This document shows positions 1,024 to 50,087 of a stretch of 50,560 bases of DNA, one piece after another; positions within the stretch are counted from its first letter, which is position 1; each line of letters starts with the position of its first letter. The notes below the pieces were generated by a model. That model saw only the letters and a list, made by a program, of their open reading frames with translations. It was not told the DNA's origin and did no database searches. The translations under genes and the position numbers were made by a program. This DNA is from a virus: IMG/VR virus record IMGVR_UViG_3300022538_000825, positions 1 through 50,560 of that record; one strand, written 5' to 3'.

Positions 1024-2970
1024 ATGGGATTAATGACAGAGCGAATTGATACGGCTATTTCCGAGTTCTTTGATAAGGTAGACCGCCGGGGCCGTAGAGC
1101 TGGCCGTCTACACCGGGCTATGGATAAGGGTGCTGAGTACCTGAGACCCAAGATCAACGAGTGGATGGGGATTATGAGGAGAAAGATCCTCAGTGATCTT
1201 ACTCATAAGTTTGCTAAGTTTACTAACCTTACTAACTTTGCCAAGGATACAGCCCTAGAGATAACCACTAAGCTGACTGACTGGGAGTGGATCCAGGATA
1301 ACGGCAGGAGGATACTGAAGCCCGCTCTCCTGACGGTTCTGGGAAAGGGAGCGGATGAGGCATTTATCATCGGGGGAATTGAGGCGCGGTTTGATGTCCT
1401 CAACCCCAGAAGCGTGGCCTGGGCTGAGAAGCACTGCGCAAAGCTGGTCAGGGAGGTAACGGATGAGACGAGGGTCGCGATCAGGGATGTTATCAGACGG
1501 GGAGTAAAAGAGGGCAAGTCGGTACCGCACATGGCCAAGGAGATCAGGCCGCTGGTGGGTCTGACCTCCAGGCAGTCAATGGCAGTGGCCAATTATGACG
1601 AATGGCTGATTATGAACCGCCCGGAGCTGTCAGCCTCAGAGGTGTCAAGGCGGGTGGACGTCTACGCCCGGAGGATGCACCGGAGGCGGGCTAATATGAT
1701 TAGCCACACGGAATCGGCCTTTGCCGTGGACGAGGGGACGCTACAGGGATATGAGGAGGCGGAGGTTGAAAAGGTGGAGATCCTGCTGGCGGTGGGTGCC
1801 TGCGATGACTGCGTGACTCTAGCCCGGAAGAGATACAAACCCAGCGAGGCACACGGGATACTGCCTGCCCATCCAGTCTGTTATGATGATAAAACTGAGG
1901 TATATACCGATGAAGGATGGAAATTTTTCAAAGATTTAAATAATAAAGAACAAATCCTAAGTTTAAATCCTGTTACCTTTCAATTAGAATGGTTACCATA
2001 TGTTCAAAAAATAGAATACCATTATAAAGGAAAATTGTTTTATCTTCATAATAAATGGTTTAGCTTAGTAGCAACACCCGACCATAGCCAATTATTTGGT
2101 CGAAGGATAGACCCTAATGATAGGAAAAAAGTTAGATGGGAGATTAAAACCTTAGAAGAAATAGTAGGGTATAAAGAATTTATGCTTCCAAGGACTGCCC
2201 GATGGATAGGAATTAGTCCCCAATTTTTAGATATTAATGGACTTAAGTTAGAGACTAAACTGTTTTGTAGATTTATGGGTTACTGGCTTTCAGAAGGATC
2301 AGTTACCCAAAGAGCAAAAGAAAAAGGTTGGAACTGGTATCAAATATCTATTGCTCAGAAACTCAAAGGGCTAAATAAAATTTATGAAGATATAAAGTTA
2401 TTACCAGTAAAACTTGCAAAGGGAAAAAATCATATTACTTGCAATGATAAACGATTAGGAAAGTATTTATTGCAATTCGGTCATTCAGATCAAAAATTTA
2501 TTCCTCAGGAGATCAAACAACTTTCTCCGGAATTCATTAAAGAGTTTCTATTTGCTTTTAATTTTGGAGATGGTTCTACTAGAAATACAAAATGGCATAG
2601 TAAGGAAAAAGATTTTGAAAGTCGGGAATATACATTTTCTACCTCAAGTCCAAAATTGGCAGGAGATTTAGGGGAACTTATTTTAAAAGCCGGTGGCTAT
2701 CCATCTTATAGAATTAAAAATAACGCAGGGAAAGAGGTTAAGTTTAAAAACGGTGTTTATAAAATTAAATGGGATCAATATATAATATCTTGGAATCACT
2801 CTAAAAATGCCTATTTTGGTGATAAAAGAAAAAGATGGCTTATAGATAGTATAGATTACGATGGAATGGTTTATGATGTAGAATTACCGAGAAATCACAT
2901 TCTCTGGGTTAAACATAATGGAAAAACCTGCTTTAGTGGAAATTGCCGTTGCTGCTGGAGTTCGCTATGA
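1024..2970 (+). CDS. Minor head protein (Mu gpF/SPP1 gp7-like) interrupted by an intein
   Basis: The precursor is 648 residues. The flanking exteins, 285 plus 8 residues, form a 293-residue phage head morphogenesis protein of the Mu F/SPP1 gp7 family, which sits with the portal inside the capsid. Family signs are the helical N-terminus, the region with HTESAFAVDEG near residues 227-237, and the C-terminal ACDDC followed by HPxCRC. The intein begins at Cys286 within LPAHPV/C and ends at Asn640, just before CRCC. Excision therefore restores HPVCRCCWSSL at the very C-terminus, the metal-binding-like end typical of this family. The extein is GC-richer than the inserted AT-rich segment. The start is ATG directly after the preceding stop. 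Confidence 0.9.
   Translation: MGLMTERIDTAISEFFDKVDRRGRRAGRLHRAMDKGAEYLRPKINEWMGIMRRKILSDLTHKFAKFTNLTNFAKDTALEITTKLTDWEWIQDNGRRILKPALLTVLGKGADEAFIIGGIEARFDVLNPRSVAWAEKHCAKLVREVTDETRVAIRDVIRRGVKEGKSVPHMAKEIRPLVGLTSRQSMAVANYDEWLIMNRPELSASEVSRRVDVYARRMHRRRANMISHTESAFAVDEGTLQGYEEAEVEKVEILLAVGACDDCVTLARKRYKPSEAHGILPAHPVCYDDKTEVYTDEGWKFFKDLNNKEQILSLNPVTFQLEWLPYVQKIEYHYKGKLFYLHNKWFSLVATPDHSQLFGRRIDPNDRKKVRWEIKTLEEIVGYKEFMLPRTARWIGISPQFLDINGLKLETKLFCRFMGYWLSEGSVTQRAKEKGWNWYQISIAQKLKGLNKIYEDIKLLPVKLAKGKNHITCNDKRLGKYLLQFGHSDQKFIPQEIKQLSPEFIKEFLFAFNFGDGSTRNTKWHSKEKDFESREYTFSTSSPKLAGDLGELILKAGGYPSYRIKNNAGKEVKFKNGVYKIKWDQYIISWNHSKNAYFGDKRKRWLIDSIDYDGMVYDVELPRNHILWVKHNGKTCFSGNCRCCWSSL
1879..2943 (+). mobile_element. 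Intein with LAGLIDADG homing endonuclease domain
   Basis: A 355-residue in-frame insertion in the minor head protein. It starts with Cys (block A: CYDDKTEVYTDEGW) and has a block B TxxH (VATPDHSQ). Two LAGLIDADG-like helices follow (FMGYWLSEGS near residue 417 and FAFNFGDGS near residue 510 of the precursor). It ends with block F/G (YDGMVYDVELPRNH, then SGN) followed by Cys+1. The penultimate residue is Gly rather than the usual His, which occurs in some active inteins. Base composition is clearly more AT-rich and codon use differs from the extein, which indicates recent acquisition. Splicing is inferred from intact blocks, not shown. Confidence 0.9.
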
Positions 2971-3758: not shown

Positions 3759-3874
3759 AGGAAATAACAGAAAATAAACTAAAAAAGGCCGAGAGGAACG
3801 AGCTTTATCATCTTAAGTTCAGGTTCCTGCAGATCTGGCGAAAGTTGGTGAAGAGCAATGTTATCAAAAAGTGA
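3749..3874 (+). CDS. Small helical hypothetical protein
   Basis: A 41-residue ORF starting with ATG inside the end of the previous gene and overlapping the next gene's start by 17 bases. Its sequence is one charged helix with the segment ELYHLKFRFLQIW. I recall similar short helical segments fused to or beside head-region proteins in other phages. Supported by tight packing and lack of any other gene here; no function is assigned. Confidence 0.45.
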   Translation: MRIEEITENKLKKAERNELYHLKFRFLQIWRKLVKSNVIKK

Positions 3875-5120
3875 GCTCCTGAGTAAATATGAGATTCTAA
3901 CGGCTGAAATGAAAAAGAGGGAGTTGAAGCTCGGAGAGAATACGCCTCTGGATGTGGCTCTGGGCGTGGCTCTGTTTAAACGGGCTATGCTAGGGATAGA
4001 CGTTACCCGCCTCAGTGACGTAGTGGTAGTCCCCGATTATATCACCATCGGGGGGGGATTCGTTAAGTCTCCCAGGGATGTAAAGGATCTTGACCTGGTT
4101 ATGCGCCAGGATGAGGGGGACAGGGATGAAGGGACGGAGCTTAAGATCTCCCGTCTAGTCAAGAAACAGACCGGGAAGGAATGCCGCTTTGTTTATAGCA
4201 AGAGTGGACCGCATAGCAATTATATCCCGGCGTTTGATCTAGTGCTGAGGGCTAAGGATACTACTAGGCGGGTTAAGGTTAAAGAGGGCTATGGGAAGGC
4301 GACGAAGGAGACGAAGATAATCTGGGTTATCCCGAAGGTCTACATCCCACGTATGGGGGGCTATGCCCACGAGCACAGCAAGAACGAGTTCTCACGGAAT
4401 ATTGTAAAGTGGAGAGCCGATGTCACCAATGAGGAGTACCTTGAGGAGTTCGGCACCCTGCTACATAAGGCCATTAAGGATAAGCTGGGCACCGCCTGGG
4501 AGGTCCTAACTTATCCAGGGGAGGTTGATTCCGGGAGGCCGGTTCATCAGCTAGTTAAATGGCTGGCTAAGAAGATGAAGATAATTTATAGATCAATACA
4601 GACTCAGAATCCCACAGATTTTAGCGGTAAAAGAGTCCTGATTATAGATGATATAGTAGCCTCGGGTGCGACAGCAAGGAAGGCAGTTAAAAGAGTCCGG
4701 GACGGGAATGCCAAAGTGATAGGATTTGCTGCTCTTGGCAGGTCAAAGCCGAAGATGAAGGAAAGATTCTGGCTGGAAAAAGCGGACAAAGAGGGCGCTG
4801 AGGAGATCCTGCCCGCACTAAAGGATTACGAGGATCTCCTGCACCATATCCACACTAAGGGGGACGGGGAAGAGGAGATCCACCACTGCCTCATTCTCGA
4901 CCATATAGCCAATATGTTTGAGCAGGCGCACCTGTGGATTAAGGACGGAAAGATCTATTTGAATGAAAAGGAGATTAAAGAGGGTGTGTTCCACGTAATA
5001 AAGGATCTGGAGCCTACCCAGGAAGTCGTCTGGTCGGACAAAGAGGCTGAGGAGAATAAGATAACGGCTAAGAAAATGAAGGTAGGGATGACTCTAAGCC
5101 AAAAGGCTAAGGAGTGGTGA
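3858..5120 (+). CDS. Nucleotidyltransferase-like / phosphoribosyltransferase fusion protein
   Basis: A 420-residue protein. Residues about 55-180 resemble a nucleotidyltransferase fold: a GGG loop, then SPRDVKDLDL, giving the G-x-S...DxD pattern. Residues about 230-320 are a type I phosphoribosyltransferase: VLIIDDIVASGAT at 260-272 is the PRPP-binding loop preceded by a hydrophobic strand. The last 100 residues are charged and helical with HH pairs. It sits in the head operon, followed one base later by an asparagine-synthase-like gene. The domains imply nucleotide or PRPP chemistry, but the substrate is unknown. Strong DNA-level continuity with neighbours argues against recent insertion. 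Confidence 0.75.
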   Translation: MLSKSELLSKYEILTAEMKKRELKLGENTPLDVALGVALFKRAMLGIDVTRLSDVVVVPDYITIGGGFVKSPRDVKDLDLVMRQDEGDRDEGTELKISRLVKKQTGKECRFVYSKSGPHSNYIPAFDLVLRAKDTTRRVKVKEGYGKATKETKIIWVIPKVYIPRMGGYAHEHSKNEFSRNIVKWRADVTNEEYLEEFGTLLHKAIKDKLGTAWEVLTYPGEVDSGRPVHQLVKWLAKKMKIIYRSIQTQNPTDFSGKRVLIIDDIVASGATARKAVKRVRDGNAKVIGFAALGRSKPKMKERFWLEKADKEGAEEILPALKDYEDLLHHIHTKGDGEEEIHHCLILDHIANMFEQAHLWIKDGKIYLNEKEIKEGVFHVIKDLEPTQEVVWSDKEAEENKITAKKMKVGMTLSQKAKEW

Positions 5121-5121
5121 A

Positions 5122-5835
5122 ATGATTACTTACCCGGAGTGCTGGTCTTCAATCGGACGGCCTATTGAGGTCGGGGAAATAGAGGAGGCGATTCTTCAAA
5201 CTCTGCTTGACATTCCCTGTCCTAATCTCTCCCTCTCGGGGGGCTTGGACTCCTCCCTAATGCTGTATTTTATGACTAAGGTTTTTGACAAGGTGTCTGC
5301 TTTTACCATTGGTTATCCAGAGACCCATCCCGATATTGAGTATTCTAGATTGGTTGCGAAGAAGTTTAAGAATGTAGCTCACGTGATCTATGTGCCAACT
5401 GCCCAGGATATAGCTGAGGAGACGAAGAAAAGGCCAGGGCCGGATGTCGGAGTTAGATTATTTTATAAATTCCTTGCCAAGGGGGGGATTTCCAGGATTA
5501 TTACCTGTGATGGTGTAGATGAGTATATGGCGGGTTATTATGATCATCAGCAACATCCTGACGAAGAGACTTATTACAAATATATCCGGCGCTTACAGGA
5601 TGAGCACCTGGAGCAACTCAATAAGAATTCGGGGCATATAAGAGTTTATCTTCCGTATCTGGATGAGGTTATCCTTTACCTATTAGCCCAGATACCTATT
5701 AGTGAGAAGGTGGACGGTGAGCATCGCAAGAAGATGATGGTTCAGATGGCCAAAGGTAAGATCCCTGATAAGGTTATAGAGAGATGGAAGTATGGCTTTA
5801 ACGATGTGTTAGGAATCAAGAAAGCGAGGTTTTAA
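5122..5835 (+). CDS. Asparagine-synthase-like PP-loop ATPase (no glutaminase domain)
   Basis: A 237-residue protein with the PP-loop SGGLDSS at residues 39-45, which binds ATP pyrophosphate. A later CDGVDEYMAGYY corresponds to the GDGxDELxxGY motif of asparagine synthase C-terminal domains. The N-terminal glutaminase domain and its catalytic Cys are absent, so ammonia or another nucleophile would be used, or the enzyme adenylates a different acid. The gene starts one base after the NTase-PRTase gene and 2 bases before the protease gene. It therefore belongs to the head operon and probably acts with its upstream neighbour. Substrate unknown. Confidence 0.8.
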   Translation: MITYPECWSSIGRPIEVGEIEEAILQTLLDIPCPNLSLSGGLDSSLMLYFMTKVFDKVSAFTIGYPETHPDIEYSRLVAKKFKNVAHVIYVPTAQDIAEETKKRPGPDVGVRLFYKFLAKGGISRIITCDGVDEYMAGYYDHQQHPDEETYYKYIRRLQDEHLEQLNKNSGHIRVYLPYLDEVILYLLAQIPISEKVDGEHRKKMMVQMAKGKIPDKVIERWKYGFNDVLGIKKARF

Positions 5836-27095: not shown

Positions 27096-27257
27096 ATGCG
27101 ACAAAAACAATTATTAGAACAGATACTAACTGAACTTCGCAACATACATTATCACGTTGAAAGAATAGAAGTTTTTTATCAGATGGCCCACAACATCAAG
27201 GAGAACGACAAAGGAGTGTGGGTTGAGGATAAAAAAGAGGAGGTACAGAAAAAATGA
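27096..27257 (+). CDS. Small hypothetical protein
   Basis: A 53-residue protein starting directly after the previous stop (TAAATG) and ending 4 bases into the papain-like gene (ATGA overlap). The sequence is a helical heptad-like N-terminus (QLLEQILTELRNIHYHVERI) and a charged tail. Its tight coupling to neighbours supports it as real. Function unknown. Confidence 0.5.
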   Translation: MRQKQLLEQILTELRNIHYHVERIEVFYQMAHNIKENDKGVWVEDKKEEVQKK

Positions 27258-27988
27258 ATGAACATCGTTTAGGTTATAGACCTGAACCGCCAGATGAGAG
27301 AGATTTATTTGTGCCGATACCAGATTACGATTTACCTAAAAAGGTCGATTGGACGGAACAGCTTACTCAGATTAGAGACCAGGGGAATGAGGGTTCTTGC
27401 GTGGGCTTTGCTGTAACTGCCCTCAAGGAATTTCAGGAATGGAAACAATACGGTAGATCATTCGACTTATCTGAACGGTGGATTTATGAGTGGGCTAAAG
27501 AGCATGACGAATGGCCTGGCATAGACTATGAAGGCACGAGCATTCGGGGAGCCATGAAAGCCTTGTATCAACATGGCATCTGCGAAGAAAAATTCTGGCC
27601 ATACGTCCCCGGAGAAAAGGGGGAGCCAGATATAAAAGCAGCCGAAGATGCCTATGAATATCGCATTGAAAAATATCGCAGCTTGGTAATTCCCAGGAAA
27701 GACATTCGATTGATTAAGCGGGGGCTGCACGAGACTGGGCCAGTAGCAGTGGGCATGGCAGTTTACTCGACCTGGTTCTCTGTAGGAGAAGATGGCATTA
27801 TCAAAAAACCTTGCTGCTTCGCTAGGATTCTCGGCTACCACGCAGTGCTGGTCGTAGCATATGATAATAAGTTCGTCAAGATTAAGAATAGCTGGGGCGA
27901 ATACTGGGGAGCTGAAGGTTTCGGTTACATTGAGTTAGACTATTTTATGAAAATTCTTCATACGGCGTGGGCCGCGTATGATATGTAG
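27254..27988 (+). CDS. Papain-like (C1 family) cysteine peptidase
   Basis: A 244-residue protein without signal peptide. Catalytic residues are visible in order: oxyanion Gln43 and Cys49 in RDQGNEGSCVGFA, His196 in LGYHAVLVV, and Asn212 in IKNSWGEYWG. The N-terminal 30 residues (RLGYRPEPPDERDLF) match the pre-catalytic segment of bacterial C1A peptidases that lack a propeptide. It is encoded between a small helical gene and a membrane protein in the lysis region. Possible roles are virion-protein processing, host attack or an injected effector. The family is clear; the role is not. Confidence 0.85.
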   Translation: MNEHRLGYRPEPPDERDLFVPIPDYDLPKKVDWTEQLTQIRDQGNEGSCVGFAVTALKEFQEWKQYGRSFDLSERWIYEWAKEHDEWPGIDYEGTSIRGAMKALYQHGICEEKFWPYVPGEKGEPDIKAAEDAYEYRIEKYRSLVIPRKDIRLIKRGLHETGPVAVGMAVYSTWFSVGEDGIIKKPCCFARILGYHAVLVVAYDNKFVKIKNSWGEYWGAEGFGYIELDYFMKILHTAWAAYDM

Positions 27989-41503: not shown

Positions 41504-42277
41504 ATGAATAAGACAAAGATTGAGTGGGTGAGGAATAAAGATGGTACTCAGGGATATACCTGGAACCCCGTTACGGGCTGTCTAGGACCGGATGGTACTC
41601 CTGAAAATCCGAAACGGTGTACCTACTGCTACGCTCACAAACTCGCCAAGGGGAGGCTGAAATCCCAATATCTCGGCATCCCTCCCTATCCTGATGATTT
41701 AACTCCTGCTCTTTTTGTCCCTAAGACTAACAAATCTGACCCCTTTGTTCCGCGTTTCTGGAGGCACCGTCTGAGAGAACCGTTCTGGCACAGAAAGCCC
41801 TGCAACATATTTGTCTGCTCAATGGGAGAGCTTTTCAGCGAGTATTATCCGGCTTCCTGGCTGGGAAATATCTTGCACACCTTTTACGGATGTCCTCAAC
41901 ACACATTCTTGATCCTTACAAAGAATCCCCCCCGATATGAAAGGATCTGTCTACCGAAAAATGTATGGCTTGGTGTGAGTATCAATAGACGCGAGGACTG
42001 GCATAGACTCTCAACGATAACGCCTTACGGTGTCTATCGCAGGTTTATCTCTTTTGAGCCTCTCTTAGACTATGTTCAGACTTCTAGCTCTTTGGGTGTT
42101 GAGTGGGTTATTGTCGGGGCTCAGACTAATCCTTATAGACCCCCTAAAAAATACTGGGTAGAGGATATTATCTATGAAGCACATAGACAGAGGATCCCGG
42201 TTTTCTTAAAGGATAATCTTAAGCCTCTTATGGGCAATAATCTAAGACAGGAGTTTCCAGGATGGATAGAAAAATAA
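41504..42277 (+). CDS. Gp37/Gp68-family protein (DUF5131)
   Basis: A 257-residue protein after AAAGGAGACATTGGT. The start IEWVRNKDGTQGYTWNPVTG, then RCTYCYAHKLAKG, and the later FVCSMGELFSEYYP and WVIVGAQTNPYRPPK match the phage Gp37Gp68 (DUF5131) family. It has a radical-SAM-like CxxCY motif. The enzymatic activity of the family is unknown. It overlaps a RusA-like gene, then a radical SAM gene. The combination suggests modification chemistry rather than replication. Confidence 0.8.
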   Translation: MNKTKIEWVRNKDGTQGYTWNPVTGCLGPDGTPENPKRCTYCYAHKLAKGRLKSQYLGIPPYPDDLTPALFVPKTNKSDPFVPRFWRHRLREPFWHRKPCNIFVCSMGELFSEYYPASWLGNILHTFYGCPQHTFLILTKNPPRYERICLPKNVWLGVSINRREDWHRLSTITPYGVYRRFISFEPLLDYVQTSSSLGVEWVIVGAQTNPYRPPKKYWVEDIIYEAHRQRIPVFLKDNLKPLMGNNLRQEFPGWIEK

Positions 42278-42654
42278 AACTCGTGATCCCCCAGATACCA
42301 GAGTCGTACAATGTCATAAAAAACTGGCATTGGACCGGGAAGGATGAGTATAATAGGATTTGGTATTGGCAGGTTAAATCCGTATGGCTATTCTATCTTG
42401 GGGAACATTTGGCGATTCCCCCTTTGCCTTTCAAAAAAGCCAAATTGGATTTCTATATCTATTTCCCTTTCAAACACAGGAGGGATAAGCTGAATTATGC
42501 TTTGGGATTAAAGCCCGTGTTAGACCAGATAGCGGCTGAGGGGATAATTGTCGATGATAACTGGGAGAGAATAGAGGACCAGTATTATTCACGCATAGAT
42601 AAAATCAACCCGAGAACGGAAGTTATGATTGAGGAATTAAATGAGGATCCTTAG
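42262..42654 (+). CDS. RusA-like Holliday junction resolvase
   Basis: A 130-residue protein. The acidic residues lie in the RusA order: RRDKLN (Asp75) and LKPVLDQIAAEGIIVDDN (Asp88, Asp98, Asp99), followed by a conserved ending TEVMIEE. It would resolve branched DNA in replication or recombination. It overlaps both neighbours by 14-16 bases, so is translated in the same operon. Confidence 0.75.
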   Translation: MDRKIKLVIPQIPESYNVIKNWHWTGKDEYNRIWYWQVKSVWLFYLGEHLAIPPLPFKKAKLDFYIYFPFKHRRDKLNYALGLKPVLDQIAAEGIIVDDNWERIEDQYYSRIDKINPRTEVMIEELNEDP

Positions 42655-43534
42655 AGTATTTCCCAAAAGGACAAGTTTTACCCCCAAAGATGATTTAGTG
42701 GCTATTGGCTATCCAGAGCTGTGGAGACCCGAAGTGGACGAGGTGCATATCTCTTGCCTGTTTACGTGGGATAAGATTTGTTGCGCACAGTTAAAAAGGG
42801 AGTGGTCGGCATATTATCCAGTGGTAAAGATTGGTGGTCCAGCCTATGAATTTGCTGAAAATGGGTTTATACCTAGGAGGTATGTTAGGAAAGGGATCAT
42901 ATTTACCTCAAGGGGATGTAATTTTACCTGTCCTTGGTGCTTGGTTCCTATGATAGAAGGGAAATTTAGAGCATTAAAGATGATCACTCCGGGCAATGTA
43001 ATCCAGGACAACAACATTCTCCTGGCTAACGCAGGCCATTTAGCGAAAGTGTTCTCAATGCTCAAAACCCAGCGGGCAGTACGGTTTCTAGGGGGGCTGG
43101 ATGTTAGGATATTAAAGCACTGGCACATCGAGGAACTGAGAGGTCTCCGGATCAAGGAGCTATGGTTGGCCTTGGACAGTTGGCATATTCAAAGGCAATT
43201 CGAGAAAATAGTTGGGGAGCTGAAAAGGGCAGGTTTTACTCGCCACCAGATAAGATGTTATGTTCTGGCCGGATTCAATGAGCCGATTCAGGAGGCCGAG
43301 GATAGGTTGCGGTTCGCCTATGAGTGCGGGGCTTTGCCCTTCGTGCAGCTATACCAGCCCCCTTTAGCATTTAAAAGAATGGGTAGAATGACTGCAACTA
43401 AACAGGTCTACATAGACGGCAAGCCTTACTTTCTTTGCCGATATGCGACGCAAACCATAGTCTCATCCGGGGCTAAAGTCGTGCCTATCCGGGGAGTAGG
43501 AGTTATTCGGTTTTTTCCCATGGGGTTAAACTGA
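42641..43534 (+). CDS. Radical SAM enzyme
   Basis: A 297-residue protein with the [4Fe-4S] motif CNFTCPWC (Cys93, Cys97, Cys100) preceded by TSRG. Further radical SAM features are the GG-containing VRFLGGLDVRI and the GFNEP region. The N-terminal 80 residues may form a small substrate domain. No maturation Cys cluster is visible at the C-terminus, although CRYA is present. Phage radical SAM enzymes may modify tRNA, DNA or proteins; the substrate here is unknown. Last gene before the promoter/terminator region. Confidence 0.85.
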   Translation: MRILRVFPKRTSFTPKDDLVAIGYPELWRPEVDEVHISCLFTWDKICCAQLKREWSAYYPVVKIGGPAYEFAENGFIPRRYVRKGIIFTSRGCNFTCPWCLVPMIEGKFRALKMITPGNVIQDNNILLANAGHLAKVFSMLKTQRAVRFLGGLDVRILKHWHIEELRGLRIKELWLALDSWHIQRQFEKIVGELKRAGFTRHQIRCYVLAGFNEPIQEAEDRLRFAYECGALPFVQLYQPPLAFKRMGRMTATKQVYIDGKPYFLCRYATQTIVSSGAKVVPIRGVGVIRFFPMGLN

Positions 43535-45398: not shown

Positions 45399-45649
45399 AA
45401 CGAAAGAGATTACCCTGGGCCTGGTTCAGGCATGGCTTGATTTCAATTATGTGGAGTAGCCAGCTCGTATTTGGGGCTCATCGCAACCGGCATACACTTA
45501 TGTTTGTGTGGGGTTCGAGAATCAAGTACGGGATTACTATTTTTCCTAAAGATATTTGGATCCACGTATGGTTGCCGAAGTGGTGTCAGGGTAGGGGGTA
45601 CTATATTAGCATCGGATTGTGGCTATTTTCTATCCATAGGGGGTATTGA
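45395..45649 (+). CDS. Aromatic-rich hypothetical protein
   Basis: An 84-residue protein rich in Trp, Tyr, Phe, Ile and His, overlapping the previous gene by 4 bases. It ends in the TGATG that starts the ParB-PAPS fusion. It has strand-like segments (RIKYGITIFPKDIWIHVWLP). No family recognised. Confidence 0.45.
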   Translation: MKRKRLPWAWFRHGLISIMWSSQLVFGAHRNRHTLMFVWGSRIKYGITIFPKDIWIHVWLPKWCQGRGYYISIGLWLFSIHRGY

Positions 45650-46881
45650 TGGAGATAAAGACGGTTAAAATAGACGAGTTAAAGGTATTTGAGGGAAATC
45701 CTAAGAAGCATCCAGAAGAACAAATAAACAAGATAGTTCGCTCTTTCTCAGAATATGGTTGGACTAATCCTATCCTTGCGACAAAGGATAATATGATTGT
45801 CGCTGGTCACGCTAGGGTAGAGGCGGCCAAGAAAGCAGGAATAAGAGAGGTACCGGTAATATATCTTCCATTTGAGGGGAAGAAAGCCTTAGCCTATGCA
45901 ATTGCAGATAATAAACTGGCTGAAAGGGAATGGGATTTTGGCAAGATGGCTGACTTATTAACGGAACTTGATGACGGTCAATTTAATCTAGAGCTCACAG
46001 GTTTCGATATAGAGGAAGTAGAGAAGATTATGAATTGGACGCCAGCTCAGTTTAGACCAGGGGCAGGCTATGCAAAGGTAGATCCTGAGAAGATTAAAGA
46101 CTTAACACTATCGGATACAGAAAAGGATAAATTTCATAATTACGACACTTTTCTAGTTCAATATTCAGGGGGACGGGACTCTACTGTGGCCCTATGGTGG
46201 GCTAAGAAGAACTTCCCAGAGAGAAGAATTGTAGCTGTTTACTCTGATCCGGGCGTGGAATTCCCAGGGATGGGAGCTGCGGTGGAAGATGTAACGCAGT
46301 TTTTGGGGGTGGAGCTGGAAGCGGTAAAGCCAAAAACGGAGTGGTGGATCTGGATTAAGGCCAATGGATGGCCGTCCATGATTTATAGACCCTGTCAGGC
46401 TGTGTTTGTTTTCACGCCGATAAGTGAAGTGATACGGAAATTTAACTCCAAAAAGACACTATTGGTTGACGGAAGCCGTGCGAAACAGGTGATAAGAGGA
46501 AGCAAAAAAGGGAAAGACACCAAACTTCCAAGTCTGCAATATAGTAAGGAGACAAAAGATTTCAAGGCGTATCACCCTACGTATGCTCTATCAGATAAGG
46601 ATGTATGGAATATAGTCCAGAGTGAGAAAATTCCCATTTGGAGAGGTTATGAAATGGGGTTTGTACGCTCGGCTTGCTGGTGTTGTCCTTTTCAGTGTGG
46701 AGTGCAGGCTTATATGCTCCAGAAACATTATCCCGGTCTGGCCGATGAGATACGTTATTGGGAGAAGCGGTTGGGAAGTGGGTTTTGTGTACGAGGAAAG
46801 AAAGTAGATAAATTTGATGATAAGCTCAGAATGGGAAGGAAGAAGCTAAAGGTTGATGACTTTGATGCCATTCGATATTAG
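45649..46881 (+). CDS. ParB/Srx-like domain fused to PAPS-reductase-like ATP pyrophosphatase
   Basis: A 410-residue protein (ATG at 45649; a TTG one codon earlier is also in frame). Residues 1-90 form a ParB N-terminal-like domain (PILATKDNMIVAGHARVEAA, then EVPVIYL). Residues about 80-132 form a module shared with the methyltransferase fusion at 47306 (EWDFGKMADLLTELDDG, then ELTGFDIEEVEKIMNW). Residues about 160-400 form a PAPS-reductase-like PP-loop ATP pyrophosphatase (SGGRDST at 173-179) with a Cys cluster SACWCCPFQC (Cys343, 345, 346, 350). The pair IbrB/IbrA has the same two families, here fused. Chemistry probably involves sulfur or nucleotide activation on a nucleic acid target. Confidence 0.8.
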   Translation: MEIKTVKIDELKVFEGNPKKHPEEQINKIVRSFSEYGWTNPILATKDNMIVAGHARVEAAKKAGIREVPVIYLPFEGKKALAYAIADNKLAEREWDFGKMADLLTELDDGQFNLELTGFDIEEVEKIMNWTPAQFRPGAGYAKVDPEKIKDLTLSDTEKDKFHNYDTFLVQYSGGRDSTVALWWAKKNFPERRIVAVYSDPGVEFPGMGAAVEDVTQFLGVELEAVKPKTEWWIWIKANGWPSMIYRPCQAVFVFTPISEVIRKFNSKKTLLVDGSRAKQVIRGSKKGKDTKLPSLQYSKETKDFKAYHPTYALSDKDVWNIVQSEKIPIWRGYEMGFVRSACWCCPFQCGVQAYMLQKHYPGLADEIRYWEKRLGSGFCVRGKKVDKFDDKLRMGRKKLKVDDFDAIRY

Positions 46882-47229
46882 AAGTTCCCCTGTGAATCCT
46901 GTTCTATCGCAGGAAGGTGAGTTTTTACATAGAAAGGCTTTTTGACAGTTGTGTTCTAGGGCTATTTCTAAAGTCTTTTTAGCCCCCAGGATAAAACGAG
47001 ATGATACATTGCACCCTGTAACGTCATAAAGAGTAGAATTCTGCTTGTTTTGTAGAGGAGCAGCGGGGCGAGGAACAGGAAGACCTCCTAGTTGTTCAGG
47101 ACAGACAAAGATTAAGTTGCATTTCTTAGAATACCGAGCAATTTTCGCAGGACTGGGGACAGACCTACCGTGATAGCGGCAAGGCTCTCCAGTAAAGCAC
47201 AGGGAGAATAAGACGCTTTCTTTGTTCAT
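46846..47229 (-). CDS. DUF523/TudS-like protein (thiouracil desulfidase family)
   Basis: A 127-residue protein on the opposite strand to its neighbours. SLCFTGEPCRYHGRS (Cys11), FVCPEQLGGLPVPRPAAP (Cys43), TGCNVSSRFILGAKKTLEIA and NSPSCDRTG (Cys107) are the hallmarks of DUF523. One characterised group in this family is the [4Fe-4S] 2-thiouracil desulfidase TudS, which releases sulfur from thiouracil. The three Cys fit the cluster ligands. It has its own promoter and ribosome site (GGAGG) and overlaps the end of the ParB-PAPS gene by 36 bases, so it behaves like a moron. Substrate not known. Confidence 0.75.
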   Translation of the reverse strand: MNKESVLFSLCFTGEPCRYHGRSVPSPAKIARYSKKCNLIFVCPEQLGGLPVPRPAAPLQNKQNSTLYDVTGCNVSSRFILGAKKTLEIALEHNCQKAFLCKNSPSCDRTGFTGELLISNGIKVINL

Positions 47230-47247
47230 ATTTTACCTCCATTATAC

Positions 47248-47276
47248 ATTATAGCACAGAAATGCCATAAAGTCAA
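47248..47276 (-). promoter_or_regulatory. Minus-strand promoter for the DUF523 gene
   Basis: Minus-strand TTGACT (47271-47276), 17-base spacer, TATAAT (47248-47253), then GGAGG and the ATG at 47229. Near-perfect consensus, so the gene could be transcribed in the lysogen. Confidence 0.75.
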
Positions 47277-47305
47277 GTGGGGTGGGGAGTTGAGGAGATG
47301 GACTC

Positions 47306-48496
47306 TTGGAAATAAAAAGAATGAAATTGGTTGATATAAAGCTTGCTCGTTATAATCCCCGGAAAGATCTCAAGCCAGGCGATCCTGAATATGAGAAGAT
47401 AAAAAGGAGTATTGACGAATTTGACTGTGTAGAGCCGCTGGTGTGGAATAGGAGAAGCAAGAGACTTATCGGGGGTCACCAAAGGTTGAAAATCCTTAAG
47501 GAGAAGGGAATAAAAGAGTTCGAGGTATCGGTGGTTGATTTAGAGGAGCAAAAAGAGAAGGCTCTTAATGTTGCTTTGAATAAGATAGAGGGAGAGTGGG
47601 ACTTTACCAAGCTGGCGGACCTGATGACGGAGCTGGACGACGGAGAGTTTGACCTGGAGTTGACGGGGTTTGATCTTAAGGAGATTGAGGAGATAATGAA
47701 CTGGACTCCCAAAGAGGAAAAGCCTTTTGATGCGGCGGCTGAAGCCGAAAAGATAAAAGAGCCGAAGAGCAGACGAGGGGAGATTTACCAGCTAGGCAGG
47801 CATAGATTGATGTGCGGGGATGCGACTAACAAGGAAGATGTGGAGAGGCTGATGGGTGGGGAGAAGGGGGATTTATTACTGACTGACCCCCCCTATAATG
47901 TTGGAAAAGACTATAAAAATGAAAACTTGTCAGAACCCGAAATGGTAAATTTTTTCAATGGGTGGATGAAAATGGCGGTTAATAGTCTAAAAGACAAAGC
48001 GGCAGTTTACGTTTTTGCCGCTAATAGAACTCTTCCGATTATATTATCTTGTTTTTATCAGAATTTCTATTATTCGAGGACAATTTGCTGGTATAAACCT
48101 GATGCAATGGGAGTTTATTCGGCTGATTATTTTTTTCAATGGGAGCCGATTTTATATGGCGGGAAGAATGGTTCGCCCCATGTAGAAAAAAGAGGTAAAT
48201 TTTCCCGTGACCATTGGGAAGTTCCTGTTTTTGAAATAAAGGGCAAGAATACTCCTGAAACGGCTGTGCATCCCACAAGGAAGCCATTGGATGTTATTAT
48301 TGAGCCGATTAATGTTAATTCGATTAAAGACAATATAGTTATTGACCTGTTTGGCGGCTCAGGCACAACTCTAATAGCCTGCGAGCAAATCAACCGCATC
48401 TGCTATATGATGGAAATAGACCCTATTTACTGTGACGTAATCATCAACCGCTGGGAGAAACATACAGGGGAAAAAGCGGAGTTAATAAAGCAATGA
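47306..48496 (+). CDS. ParB/Srx-like domain fused to DNA methyltransferase (N4/N6, beta class)
   Basis: A 396-residue protein with TTG start after TTGAGGAGATGGACTC. Residues 1-90 are a ParB N-terminal-like domain (RSKRLIGGHQRLKILKE). Residues about 86-135 are the module shared with the upstream fusion (EWDFTKLADLMTELDDG, then ELTGFDLKEIEEIMNW). The methyltransferase has DPPY at 194-197 and later DLFGGSGTT at 347-355. This order marks a beta-class N4-cytosine or N6-adenine enzyme. It may protect phage DNA from restriction. Located just before the terminase genes. Confidence 0.85.
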   Translation: MEIKRMKLVDIKLARYNPRKDLKPGDPEYEKIKRSIDEFDCVEPLVWNRRSKRLIGGHQRLKILKEKGIKEFEVSVVDLEEQKEKALNVALNKIEGEWDFTKLADLMTELDDGEFDLELTGFDLKEIEEIMNWTPKEEKPFDAAAEAEKIKEPKSRRGEIYQLGRHRLMCGDATNKEDVERLMGGEKGDLLLTDPPYNVGKDYKNENLSEPEMVNFFNGWMKMAVNSLKDKAAVYVFAANRTLPIILSCFYQNFYYSRTICWYKPDAMGVYSADYFFQWEPILYGGKNGSPHVEKRGKFSRDHWEVPVFEIKGKNTPETAVHPTRKPLDVIIEPINVNSIKDNIVIDLFGGSGTTLIACEQINRICYMMEIDPIYCDVIINRWEKHTGEKAELIKQ

Positions 48497-48906
48497 AGCT
48501 AAATATTCGCCAGATCAAATTCATTGACAATCTTTTCCTGGGTATGAGCTTAGTTAAGGCTTATAGGGAGGCAGGCTATAAGGGAAGAGGTCAATCGGAT
48601 TATAGCGATAGCTCCCGGTTGCTTAGAAAAGCTAATGTTTTAGCAGAATTGAAAGCCCGCATTGAGACTCACAGGGAAACTGTAAGTGCTCGGCTAATGA
48701 CGATTACAGACGGAGCTACTAATGCTTATATCAGGATCCTCAAGTTAAAGGCTGGGAATAATCCTGCCTTAATTGAAATTCAAAGGAAAGTGGCCCAAGA
48801 CTTATTCGACCGGGCGGGCCTGAAGCCGGTGGAGAGAGTGGCACTAGGGGGCGATAAGGAGCTGGAGCCGCTCAGAGTTATAATTGAAAAGGGAAAAGAT
48901 GGGTGA
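48493..48906 (+). CDS. terS: Terminase small subunit
   Basis: A 137-residue protein overlapping the methyltransferase by 4 bases. The start NIRQIKFIDNLFLGMSLVKA, then YREAGYKG, is a terminase_2-type small-subunit DNA-binding motif (Rq..FI..yl.g.s..kAy..AGY). The rest is a helical oligomerisation region with a flexible Lys/Glu-rich end. It recognises the packaging site and activates the large subunit. Confidence 0.85.
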   Translation: MKLNIRQIKFIDNLFLGMSLVKAYREAGYKGRGQSDYSDSSRLLRKANVLAELKARIETHRETVSARLMTITDGATNAYIRILKLKAGNNPALIEIQRKVAQDLFDRAGLKPVERVALGGDKELEPLRVIIEKGKDG

Positions 48907-50087
48907 ATGGGAAAGTAGTCCTTCATAAATACCAGGGTAAAGCCATGCTATCACCCGCCCGCTTCATCGGCTTAATAGCCGGGTCAGGCGGCGGTAAAAC
49001 GTTCTTTGGCCCTATCTGGCTACTCAGGGAGGTCCGCAATCATCCGCAAGACTCGTTCTTTGTCATAGCCCCGACGTTCCCCCTGTTCAACAGGACGACC
49101 CTTCCGGAGTTCAGGAGGCGGTTCGACTTCGAGCCCGGGATCAAGGGGACTTATAAGGAGCAAAAAAAGGAGTACCGGCTGGGGAGCGGGGGTATTATCT
49201 ACTTTGGCTCTGCTGATAGACCGGATAGCCTAGAGGGAGGCCAGGTCAGGGCCGCTTGGGTTGATGAGGCTGGCCAGATTAAACGTGCCTCCTGGGAGGC
49301 TATCCAGCGCAGGCTGGGCTTCTATATGGGTCGCGCCCTGCTTACGACAACCCCTTACTCGCTCAACTGGCTCAAGACAGATTTCTATGACCACTGGAAG
49401 AAAAGGGATCCGGATTATGATGTGATCCAGTTTAAGTCCATTGATAGCCCTTATTACCCTAAGGATGAGTACAAGCGGGCTAAGAGGACTCTGGACAGCC
49501 GTATATTTGAGATGCGCTATGACGCGCTCTTTCGTAAGATGGCTGGGCTGGTATATGCTGAGTTCACGCAGAGGAACATAAAAGAGCCGGTAGGGATCAA
49601 ATTCAAGCGGGTGATCGCGGGGGTTGATTGGGGATTTTACCCTGATCCGGCGGCGATAATCCTCCACGGGGAGGATGCCCGGGGGAGGGTCTGGGTATTC
49701 TACGAATACTACCAGCTACGGAAGACCCCGGATGAGGTCTGCGCCGTCGCCAAGAAGCTGAACAAGGACTACAAAGTGGAGGTCTTCTGGTGCGGCCAGG
49801 ATGAGCCAGGAAGTATAGAGATGTTTCGCAGGGCTGGACTGAATGCCAAAGCCAATGAAGTGATGTCCGTCGCTGAGGGCCAGGGGGCTGTGACTGATCT
49901 TATAAAGAATGACGCATTACTTGTATCAAAGCGCTGTCCCAACTGGCTGGACGAGGTGGAGACGCATTATTATCCGGAGGGGAAGGTCAAGCCGGAGGGC
50001 CCCGACCACGCCCTGAGCGCCTCCAGATACGCTATTGTCAATATGAAACAAATAACTGAAAAAAGTAAAGTTTATATAGTGGGGTGA
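48903..50087 (+). CDS. terL: Terminase large subunit
   Basis: A 394-residue protein with a GTG start overlapping terS by 4 bases. Walker A GSGGGKT at 27-33; Walker B with Asp121/Glu122 (AAWVDEAGQ); coupling motif TTTPYSLNW. The RNase H-like nuclease has Asp242 (AGVDWGF), Asp300 (GQDEPGS) and Asp368 (DHALSASRY). The ATP motor packages DNA and the nuclease cuts it. All key residues are present, so it should be functional. Length is slightly short for the family. Confidence 0.93.
   Translation: MNGKVVLHKYQGKAMLSPARFIGLIAGSGGGKTFFGPIWLLREVRNHPQDSFFVIAPTFPLFNRTTLPEFRRRFDFEPGIKGTYKEQKKEYRLGSGGIIYFGSADRPDSLEGGQVRAAWVDEAGQIKRASWEAIQRRLGFYMGRALLTTTPYSLNWLKTDFYDHWKKRDPDYDVIQFKSIDSPYYPKDEYKRAKRTLDSRIFEMRYDALFRKMAGLVYAEFTQRNIKEPVGIKFKRVIAGVDWGFYPDPAAIILHGEDARGRVWVFYEYYQLRKTPDEVCAVAKKLNKDYKVEVFWCGQDEPGSIEMFRRAGLNAKANEVMSVAEGQGAVTDLIKNDALLVSKRCPNWLDEVETHYYPEGKVKPEGPDHALSASRYAIVNMKQITEKSKVYIVG

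Follow-up and report, generated by a model that had tools for sequence, protein, structure and literature searches.

Viral ParB-PAPS-reductase fusions are linked to a TudS-family desulfidase gene in a candidate nucleic acid thiolation module

Gene pairs encoding a PAPS-reductase-like (PAPSR) protein and a ParB-like protein have been described in glacial phages (PMC4490671), in the Asgard virus HeimV2 (PMC8813620), and in Psychrobacter phage Y8A (PMC10434257). ParB-methylase fusions are common in phages (PMC12704722), and the main text of that survey of ParB fusions does not mention PAPS reductase. Among the enzymes of sulfur chemistry, the thiolase TtuA and the desulfidase TudS both hold a [4Fe-4S] cluster by three cysteines, leaving one iron for sulfur; TtuA can bind an additional sulfide, and TudS, which works on thio-bases and nucleotides, has a [4Fe-5S] intermediate in common with it (PMC8584467). 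Here, we describe a locus in the virus record IMGVR_UViG_3300022538_000825 (the window, i.e., the entire 50,560-nucleotide record as opposed to the locus studied) that encodes a fusion of ParB/Srx and PAPS-reductase-like domains (ParB-PAPSR), a fusion of ParB to an N6/N4 DNA methyltransferase, and, on the opposite strand between them, a TudS/DUF523 gene that the initial annotation of this DNA had missed (Table 1). ParB-PAPSR and TudS co-occur in about 30 diverse viruses. Our tentative reading is that the locus is a viral nucleic acid thiolation module, whose most likely sulfur acceptor would be a nucleobase of viral DNA. The ParB-PAPSR/TudS link appears to be unreported in the open-access literature, which leaves out most subscription papers.

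The TudS protein scored 86.1 bits against PF04463 (curated cut-off, 34.7), and a profile of the viral TudS family matched the TudS crystal structure 6z92 at 8e-29. The functional residues reported for TudS (i.e., three cluster cysteines, Glu45, Ser101, and Ser103; PMC10611767) correspond to C11, C43, C107, E45, S104, and S106 in the window protein. Across 28 viral proteins, C11, C43, E45, and S104 were invariant (28/28), C107 was found in 27, and S106 was Ser in 21 and Ala in 6. By its residues, the window gene is that of a TudS-family protein with Fe-S and catalytic residues, i.e., a predicted desulfidase. DUF1722, the extra domain of RudS, is absent, as Pfam finds solely PF04463 in the protein. 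The gene lies tail to tail with the ParB-PAPSR gene (36-bp overlap) and is under purifying selection outside the overlap (dN/dS, 0.14). A GGAGGT Shine-Dalgarno sequence precedes its ATG, and a promoter of its own is predicted (Table 1). Comparable promoter-like sites precede tudS at five other loci (L058, L020, L034, L072, and L023), and most of the remaining loci lack them.

Scans of IMG/VR yielded 42 PAPSR clusters at 90% identity, 39 of which were found via the PAPSR sequence alone. Since a TudS-first search biases the sample, the association was counted on those 39; in 30 of them, TudS is at most 300 bp away from the PAPSR gene. Over all clusters, 24 pairs are tail to tail, 8 are in tandem, and 1 is divergent, and 20 overlap (open reading frame [ORF] starts were set mechanically, so that tandem genes may overlap less than counted). 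At the level of whole records, PF04463 was detected in 11 of 16 ParB-PAPSR records versus 0 of 21 unfused-PAPSR records (Fisher P = 5e-6); the latter set, gathered by single-protein scans and containing a few near-duplicates, served as the specificity control. The PAPSR and TudS distances of 27 pairs were correlated in a Mantel test (r = 0.33; P = 1e-4). Since r is positive but modest, the co-inheritance of the two genes is real but not strict. The fusion, which the initial annotation had proposed to seek in other phages, was recovered both from IMG/VR and from a cultured virus of an archaeal host, Methanoculleus virus Blf4, in which ParB-PAPSR and TudS are adjacent and in tandem (L003:1242-2942; MZ171369). 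The Blf4 records mislabel the pair (ParB-PAPSR as "DNA modification methylase" and TudS as "hypothetical protein"). Akkermansia prophages also bear the pair. Other "phage" TudS records are mostly unannotated or host-contig-like, and one that was inspected is a bacterial chromosome segment.

Further gene rows join PAPSR and ParB proteins. In L155 to L159, an unfused SspD-like PAPSR gene overlaps an upstream ParB-containing ORF, and TudS is absent; PAPSR and ParB proteins thus associate in more than one architecture. In phage NatCom_991 (L004:5986-8042), a ParB-methylase gene and a PAPSR gene are about 57 bp apart. In a relative of the Akkermansia prophages (L029:3563-7568), ParB-PAPSR and TudS close a row of genes that begins with a standalone ParB and continues with an ABC-ATPase-like protein (weakly matching GNAT) and a formyltransferase-like protein; this row is possibly a larger modification cassette.

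Sequence motifs of the PAPSR half point to sulfur chemistry. In 30 family representatives, the PP-loop (SGG-x-DS), C250, C344, and C347 are invariant, while C346 is not. The cysteine cluster CWCCPFQC to which the initial annotation had drawn attention is present, but only two of its cysteines are invariant, together with the upstream C250. In an alignment with five APS reductases, C344 and C347 match the CxxC motif, and C250 falls on the second cysteine of the CC pair; although this profile alignment is weak, its motifs are in register. Three of the four cluster ligands are thus kept, and the APS-type CC...CxxC site is incomplete, the first CC cysteine being lost. The three invariant cysteines support sulfur-transfer chemistry and leave its acceptor undecided. 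Structure prediction, another check that the initial annotation had put forward, agrees with the domain assignment: in the AF2 model (mean pLDDT, 85), the C-terminal part is matched by Foldseek to APS/PAPS reductases and the N-terminal part to ParB/Noc CTPases; the thiolases NcsA and TtuA are weaker matches of the model. The P-motif GxxR of the ParB-CTPase fold is present (G54 in 28/28 and R57 in 24/28), with Arg absent in Blf4. Pfam detects ParB_N and PAPS_reduct only, i.e., none of the helix-turn-helix and C-terminal dimerization domains of canonical ParB proteins; parA was not searched separately.

In the proposed module, the PP-loop of the PAPSR half would activate the target with ATP, and a [4Fe-4S] cluster, held by the three invariant cysteines with one iron free, would deliver sulfide. 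The acceptor would most likely be a nucleobase carbonyl of viral DNA, comparable to the action of TtuA and NcsA on tRNA. The ParB domain would act as an NTP-dependent module that loads the PAPSR onto DNA, and, where a second ParB protein exists (methylase-fused or standalone), ParB-PAPSR would cooperate with that partner. TudS would work in the opposite direction, stripping sulfur from thio-bases, and may either clear stray thio-nucleotides from degraded modified nucleic acid or erase the mark. We infer each of the three steps, i.e., thiolation as the reaction, a base as the target, and DNA as the nucleic acid. The presence of TudS makes a thio-nucleobase likelier than a backbone phosphorothioate, and DNA is favored over RNA because of the neighboring genes (among them ParB-methylase partners and TAGT glycosyltransferases) and the ParB domain. 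In its most specific form, which we consider possible and somewhat doubtful, the locus would be a viral writer of a thio-nucleobase in DNA (pyrimidine C=S), with the desulfidase as an eraser or pool sanitizer and sometimes with a ParB-paired methylase. To our knowledge, no natural thio-base in DNA has been described.

Several points weigh against the thiolation module. Standalone TudS prefers free 4-thio-UMP and is inactive on a synthetic mini-tRNA (PMC10611767), so that the viral protein may serve nucleotide salvage rather than erasure. No phage-encoded cysteine desulfurase was noticed in the analysis, and the sulfur would therefore need a host source. Five ParB-PAPSR records lack TudS; these are fragments or records of unknown completeness. 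The three-cysteine pattern also occurs in unfused, SspD-like phage PAPSRs and therefore cannot separate base thiolation from phosphorothioation. The thiolation chemistry itself is a prediction from sequence. Finally, the nearest profiles in a defense library are those of BrxP (1.4e-19; 67.8 bits) and SspD (2.3e-11; 42.0 bits), followed by DndC; the BrxP and SspD scores span about 200 residues, and the library has no curated cut-off for them. Among 30 family members, 29 match SspD and 26 match BrxP.

Because the SspD and BrxP profiles are nearest, DNA phosphorothioation is the strongest rival explanation: the PAPSR half would be SspD/BrxP/DndC-like, ParB targeting would replace DndD/E or SspB/C, and TudS would recycle sulfur or detoxify by-products. 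The overlap of unfused SspD-like PAPSR genes with ParB-containing ORFs in L155 to L159 also fits this explanation. We consider it unlikely, however, because TudS is confined in our comparison to records of the fused form (0/21 for the unfused one), its known chemistry concerns a nucleobase C=S rather than a phosphorothioate, and PADLOC matched no DndD/DndE, SspB/SspC, or BREX partner among the window proteins scanned (part of the ORFs). Membership in DndC was rejected on the score of the DndC equivalog TIGR03183 (15.8 bits versus a cut-off of 290.4), and the Dnd type, which the initial annotation had counted among the nearest known ideas, is a more distant relative than BrxP and SspD. An RNA target is a slightly less probable alternative, in which the module would thiolate host or viral tRNA, RNA, or free nucleotides in the course of infection, to be counteracted or balanced by TudS. 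Known PP-loop [4Fe-4S] thiolases and TudS/RudS have tRNA or the products of its breakdown as substrates (PMC8584467 and PMC11417400), and the model matches the thiolases NcsA and TtuA in Foldseek, more weakly than the reductases (3e-5). Nevertheless, the ParB domain belongs to a type that also occurs in fusions with phage DNA methylases, the terminase genes are adjacent, TAGT glycosyltransferases (a DNA modification family) lie near ParB-PAPSR in L034 and L037, and the RNA-binding domains THUMP, PUA, and DUF1722 were not found by Pfam.

ParB-PAPSR might instead resemble IbrA (PAPSR-like) and IbrB (ParB-like), which occur in phages and are described as co-activators of prophage genes (PMC4490671 and PMC8813620); it would then change transcription or prophage expression, with sulfur chemistry secondary or absent. 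This regulatory role, which we regard as improbable, leaves the TudS partner and the conserved PP-loop and cluster cysteines unexplained. Moreover, DUF3440, a domain of IbrA, is not among the Pfam matches of ParB-PAPSR. A little less probable still is counter-defense, in which TudS or ParB-PAPSR would remove or mimic a host sulfur mark to evade restriction, with host nucleic acid as the substrate. An anti-defense role has been proposed for prophage-encoded ParB fusions (PMC12704722), and the predicted promoter of tudS would suit expression in a lysogen, but no action of TudS on DNA or phosphorothioates is known, and the tie of TudS to ParB-PAPSR alone would be left unexplained. Auxiliary sulfate assimilation by a viral CysH, a frequent label for phage PAPS reductases, agrees with the Pfam name PAPS_reduct and with the APS/PAPS reductase fold. 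We rejected it as highly improbable, since the CysH equivalog scored 14.6 bits (cut-off, 154), the ECGxH cysteine motif was found in 0/30 ParB-PAPSR representatives versus 5/5 reference APS reductases, the first CC cysteine is lost, and the protein is fused to ParB.

The initial annotation had also reported a nearly identical linker in the two fusions and had suggested from it that both enzymes act at the same nucleic acid site. The likeness holds, with 29 of 39 linker residues identical versus 29 of 90 in the ParB cores, and with 81 of 117 linker nucleotides identical, which exceeds chance. The linker is not private to this locus, however. Both standalone ParBs and ParB-methylases of phages have it too (Pasteurella, Enterococcus, Vibrio, Verrucomicrobia, and halophilic archaeal viruses), and, because these come from unrelated phages and an archaeal virus, we take it to be a generic extension of this phage ParB subtype and rejected it as a private targeting module. 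That the two window fusions arose by a recent duplication of a whole gene was rejected as well (ParB cores, 32% identical; linker DNA, 69%).

What is unusual is the pairing of ParB domains per genome rather than the linker. Among the ParB domains of ParB-PAPSR proteins, that of the same genome is the best match of the second ParB protein (methylase-fused or standalone) in five of seven genomes (L118, 56% identity; L074, 77%; L037, 60%; L034, 66%; and L009, 72%) and the second-best match in the window and L138. Given about 30 alternatives, the chance of five such matches in seven is about 1e-6. The ParB subtype varies between genomes; L074 lacks the linker of the window, and there the whole ParB domain is matched. 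The pairing could reflect recent duplication or gene conversion between neighbors, or selection for ParB domains that dimerize or use one site. ParB-PAPSR and ParB-methylase are located together in L037, L074/L075, and L118 as well as in the window, and TudS accompanies them in the window, L074/L075, and L118. In the three other genomes, the ParB part of the methylase best matches the ParB-PAPSR of its own genome (56 to 77% identity). Joint action of the ParB-borne enzymes is thus plausible from their co-location and ParB matches, while the linker-based targeting suggested earlier is not upheld.

Both ORFs that had been annotated as ParB fusions are real by Pfam and PHROG, and the motifs SGGRDST, CWCCPFQC, DPPY, and FGGSGTT are all present. 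For ParB-PAPSR, the listed start is TTG (an ATG at 45649 is an alternative), and the Pfam matches are ParB_N (4.7e-7) and PAPS_reduct (5e-17). The second fusion matches N6_N4_Mtase (1.7e-28) and, below the cut-off of that profile, ParB_N (0.005). Its ParB part is confirmed by PHROG_498/620, PHROG_498 covering residues 1 to 393, i.e., a ParB domain and a beta-class methylase at full length. The two fusions lie directly upstream of the terminase genes, whose database matches are remote, in a temperate siphovirus that also encodes an integrase, a CI-like repressor, DnaB/DnaD, and tail genes. The genome is close to complete; each of its two ends (50560/1) carries part of the portal gene, and about 168 bp are missing at this junction by comparison with the close relative L015. 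No tRNA or Rfam matches were found within the window.

Table 1. Features of the ParB-PAPSR/TudS locus and adjacent genes in the window
Feature	Position	Strand	Evidence and remarks
ParB/Srx-PAPS-reductase-like fusion (ParB-PAPSR)	45646..46881	+	411 aa; Pfam, PHROG, AF2, Foldseek
ParB extension (linker) of ParB-PAPSR, aa 94-132	45925..46041	+	Protein/DNA comparison
PP-loop SGGRDST, aa 174-180	46165..46185	+	SGG-x-DS in 30/30 family representatives
Cys250	46393..46395	+	Invariant; aligns with second Cys of APS reductase CC pair
CWCC, aa 344-347	46675..46686	+	C344 and C347 invariant (CxxC); C346 variable
TudS/DUF523 (PF04463), 2-thiouracil desulfidase-like	46846..47229	-	127 aa; Pfam 2.9e-24
Sigma-70-like promoter of tudS, TTGACT-17-TATAAT, TG before -10	47248..47276	-	Predicted; consensus match 11/12
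ParB-N6/N4 DNA methyltransferase fusion	47306..48496	+	396 aa, TTG start; PHROG_498 1.8e-123
ParB extension of methylase fusion	47591..47707	+	29/39 aa identical to that of ParB-PAPSR
Beta-class N6/N4 methyltransferase domain (DPPY ... FGGSGTT)	47870..48442	+	Pfam
Terminase small subunit (context)	48493..48906	+	Pfam/PHROG
Terminase large subunit (context)	48903..50087	+	Pfam/PHROG

Other genes of the window were observed in passing. About 2 to 4 kb upstream of the module (41504-43534, plus strand) are genes for a DUF5131 protein and a radical-SAM-like protein. The former also matches the candidate defense models PDC-M41B/M30B; L016 and L035 likewise have radical-SAM proteins near ParB-PAPSR. 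The second half of a head morphogenesis gene (1024-2970, plus strand) matches ribonucleotide reductase and thymidylate synthase profiles and, weakly, LAGLIDADG_3, and is probably an intein; in a related contig, the match to LAGLIDADG is clear (L006:3479-5416). The head gene operon also includes genes for a phosphoribosyltransferase-like protein and an asparagine-synthase/QueC-like PP-loop protein (3858-5835, plus strand), and a papain-family cysteine protease gene lies downstream of the tail genes (27254-27988, plus strand).

Phage "PAPS reductases" have repeatedly been reported as auxiliary sulfate metabolism genes. The tie of a large and diverse viral ParB-PAPSR subgroup to a family of desulfidases known to act on thio-bases points to nucleic acid sulfur chemistry, and a concrete hypothesis now replaces a mere family name for these proteins. 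If the target is indeed a DNA base, the mark would be a DNA modification of a new kind, with adjacent genes for its writer and its eraser. Since the pair is present in a cultured system (Blf4 on Methanoculleus bourgensis), a sulfur mark on nucleic acid can be tested for.

Like IbrA/IbrB-like pairs, the locus brings together a ParB-like and a PAPS-reductase-like protein in a phage, but as a single fused chain with no DUF3440 match and with a TudS partner. ParB-PAPSR shares a PP-loop PAPSR-like enzyme with the DNA phosphorothioation proteins SspD, BrxP (type 4 BREX), and DndC, and differs from them in its ParB fusion, its TudS neighbor, the lack of their partners among the window proteins scanned, and a DndC score far under the cut-off. 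With the tRNA thiolases TtuA, NcsA, and TtcA, it has the PP-loop fold in common, TtuA holding its [4Fe-4S] cluster by three cysteines; in this case the likeness is a match in fold, tRNA-binding domains are lacking, and ParB is fused. The viral TudS proteins share PF04463, the three cluster cysteines, and the catalytic Glu and Ser with TudS (6Z92/6Z96) and RudS, whereas they are standalone, lack DUF1722, usually have SPSCD at the last cluster cysteine, and are tied to ParB-PAPSR. The second fusion of the window is an ordinary member of the phage ParB-N6/N4 methyltransferases (PHROG_498; PNAS 2025, PMC12704722), except that its ParB extension is nearer to that of the neighboring PAPSR fusion than the ParB cores are to each other. 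Blf4 (L4768; MZ171369 and NC_074642) differs from the window in that its TudS is on the same strand as ParB-PAPSR and its methylases, located elsewhere, carry no relative of the fusion's ParB domain; as in the window, however, a ParB-PAPSR (34% identical) is directly followed by TudS.

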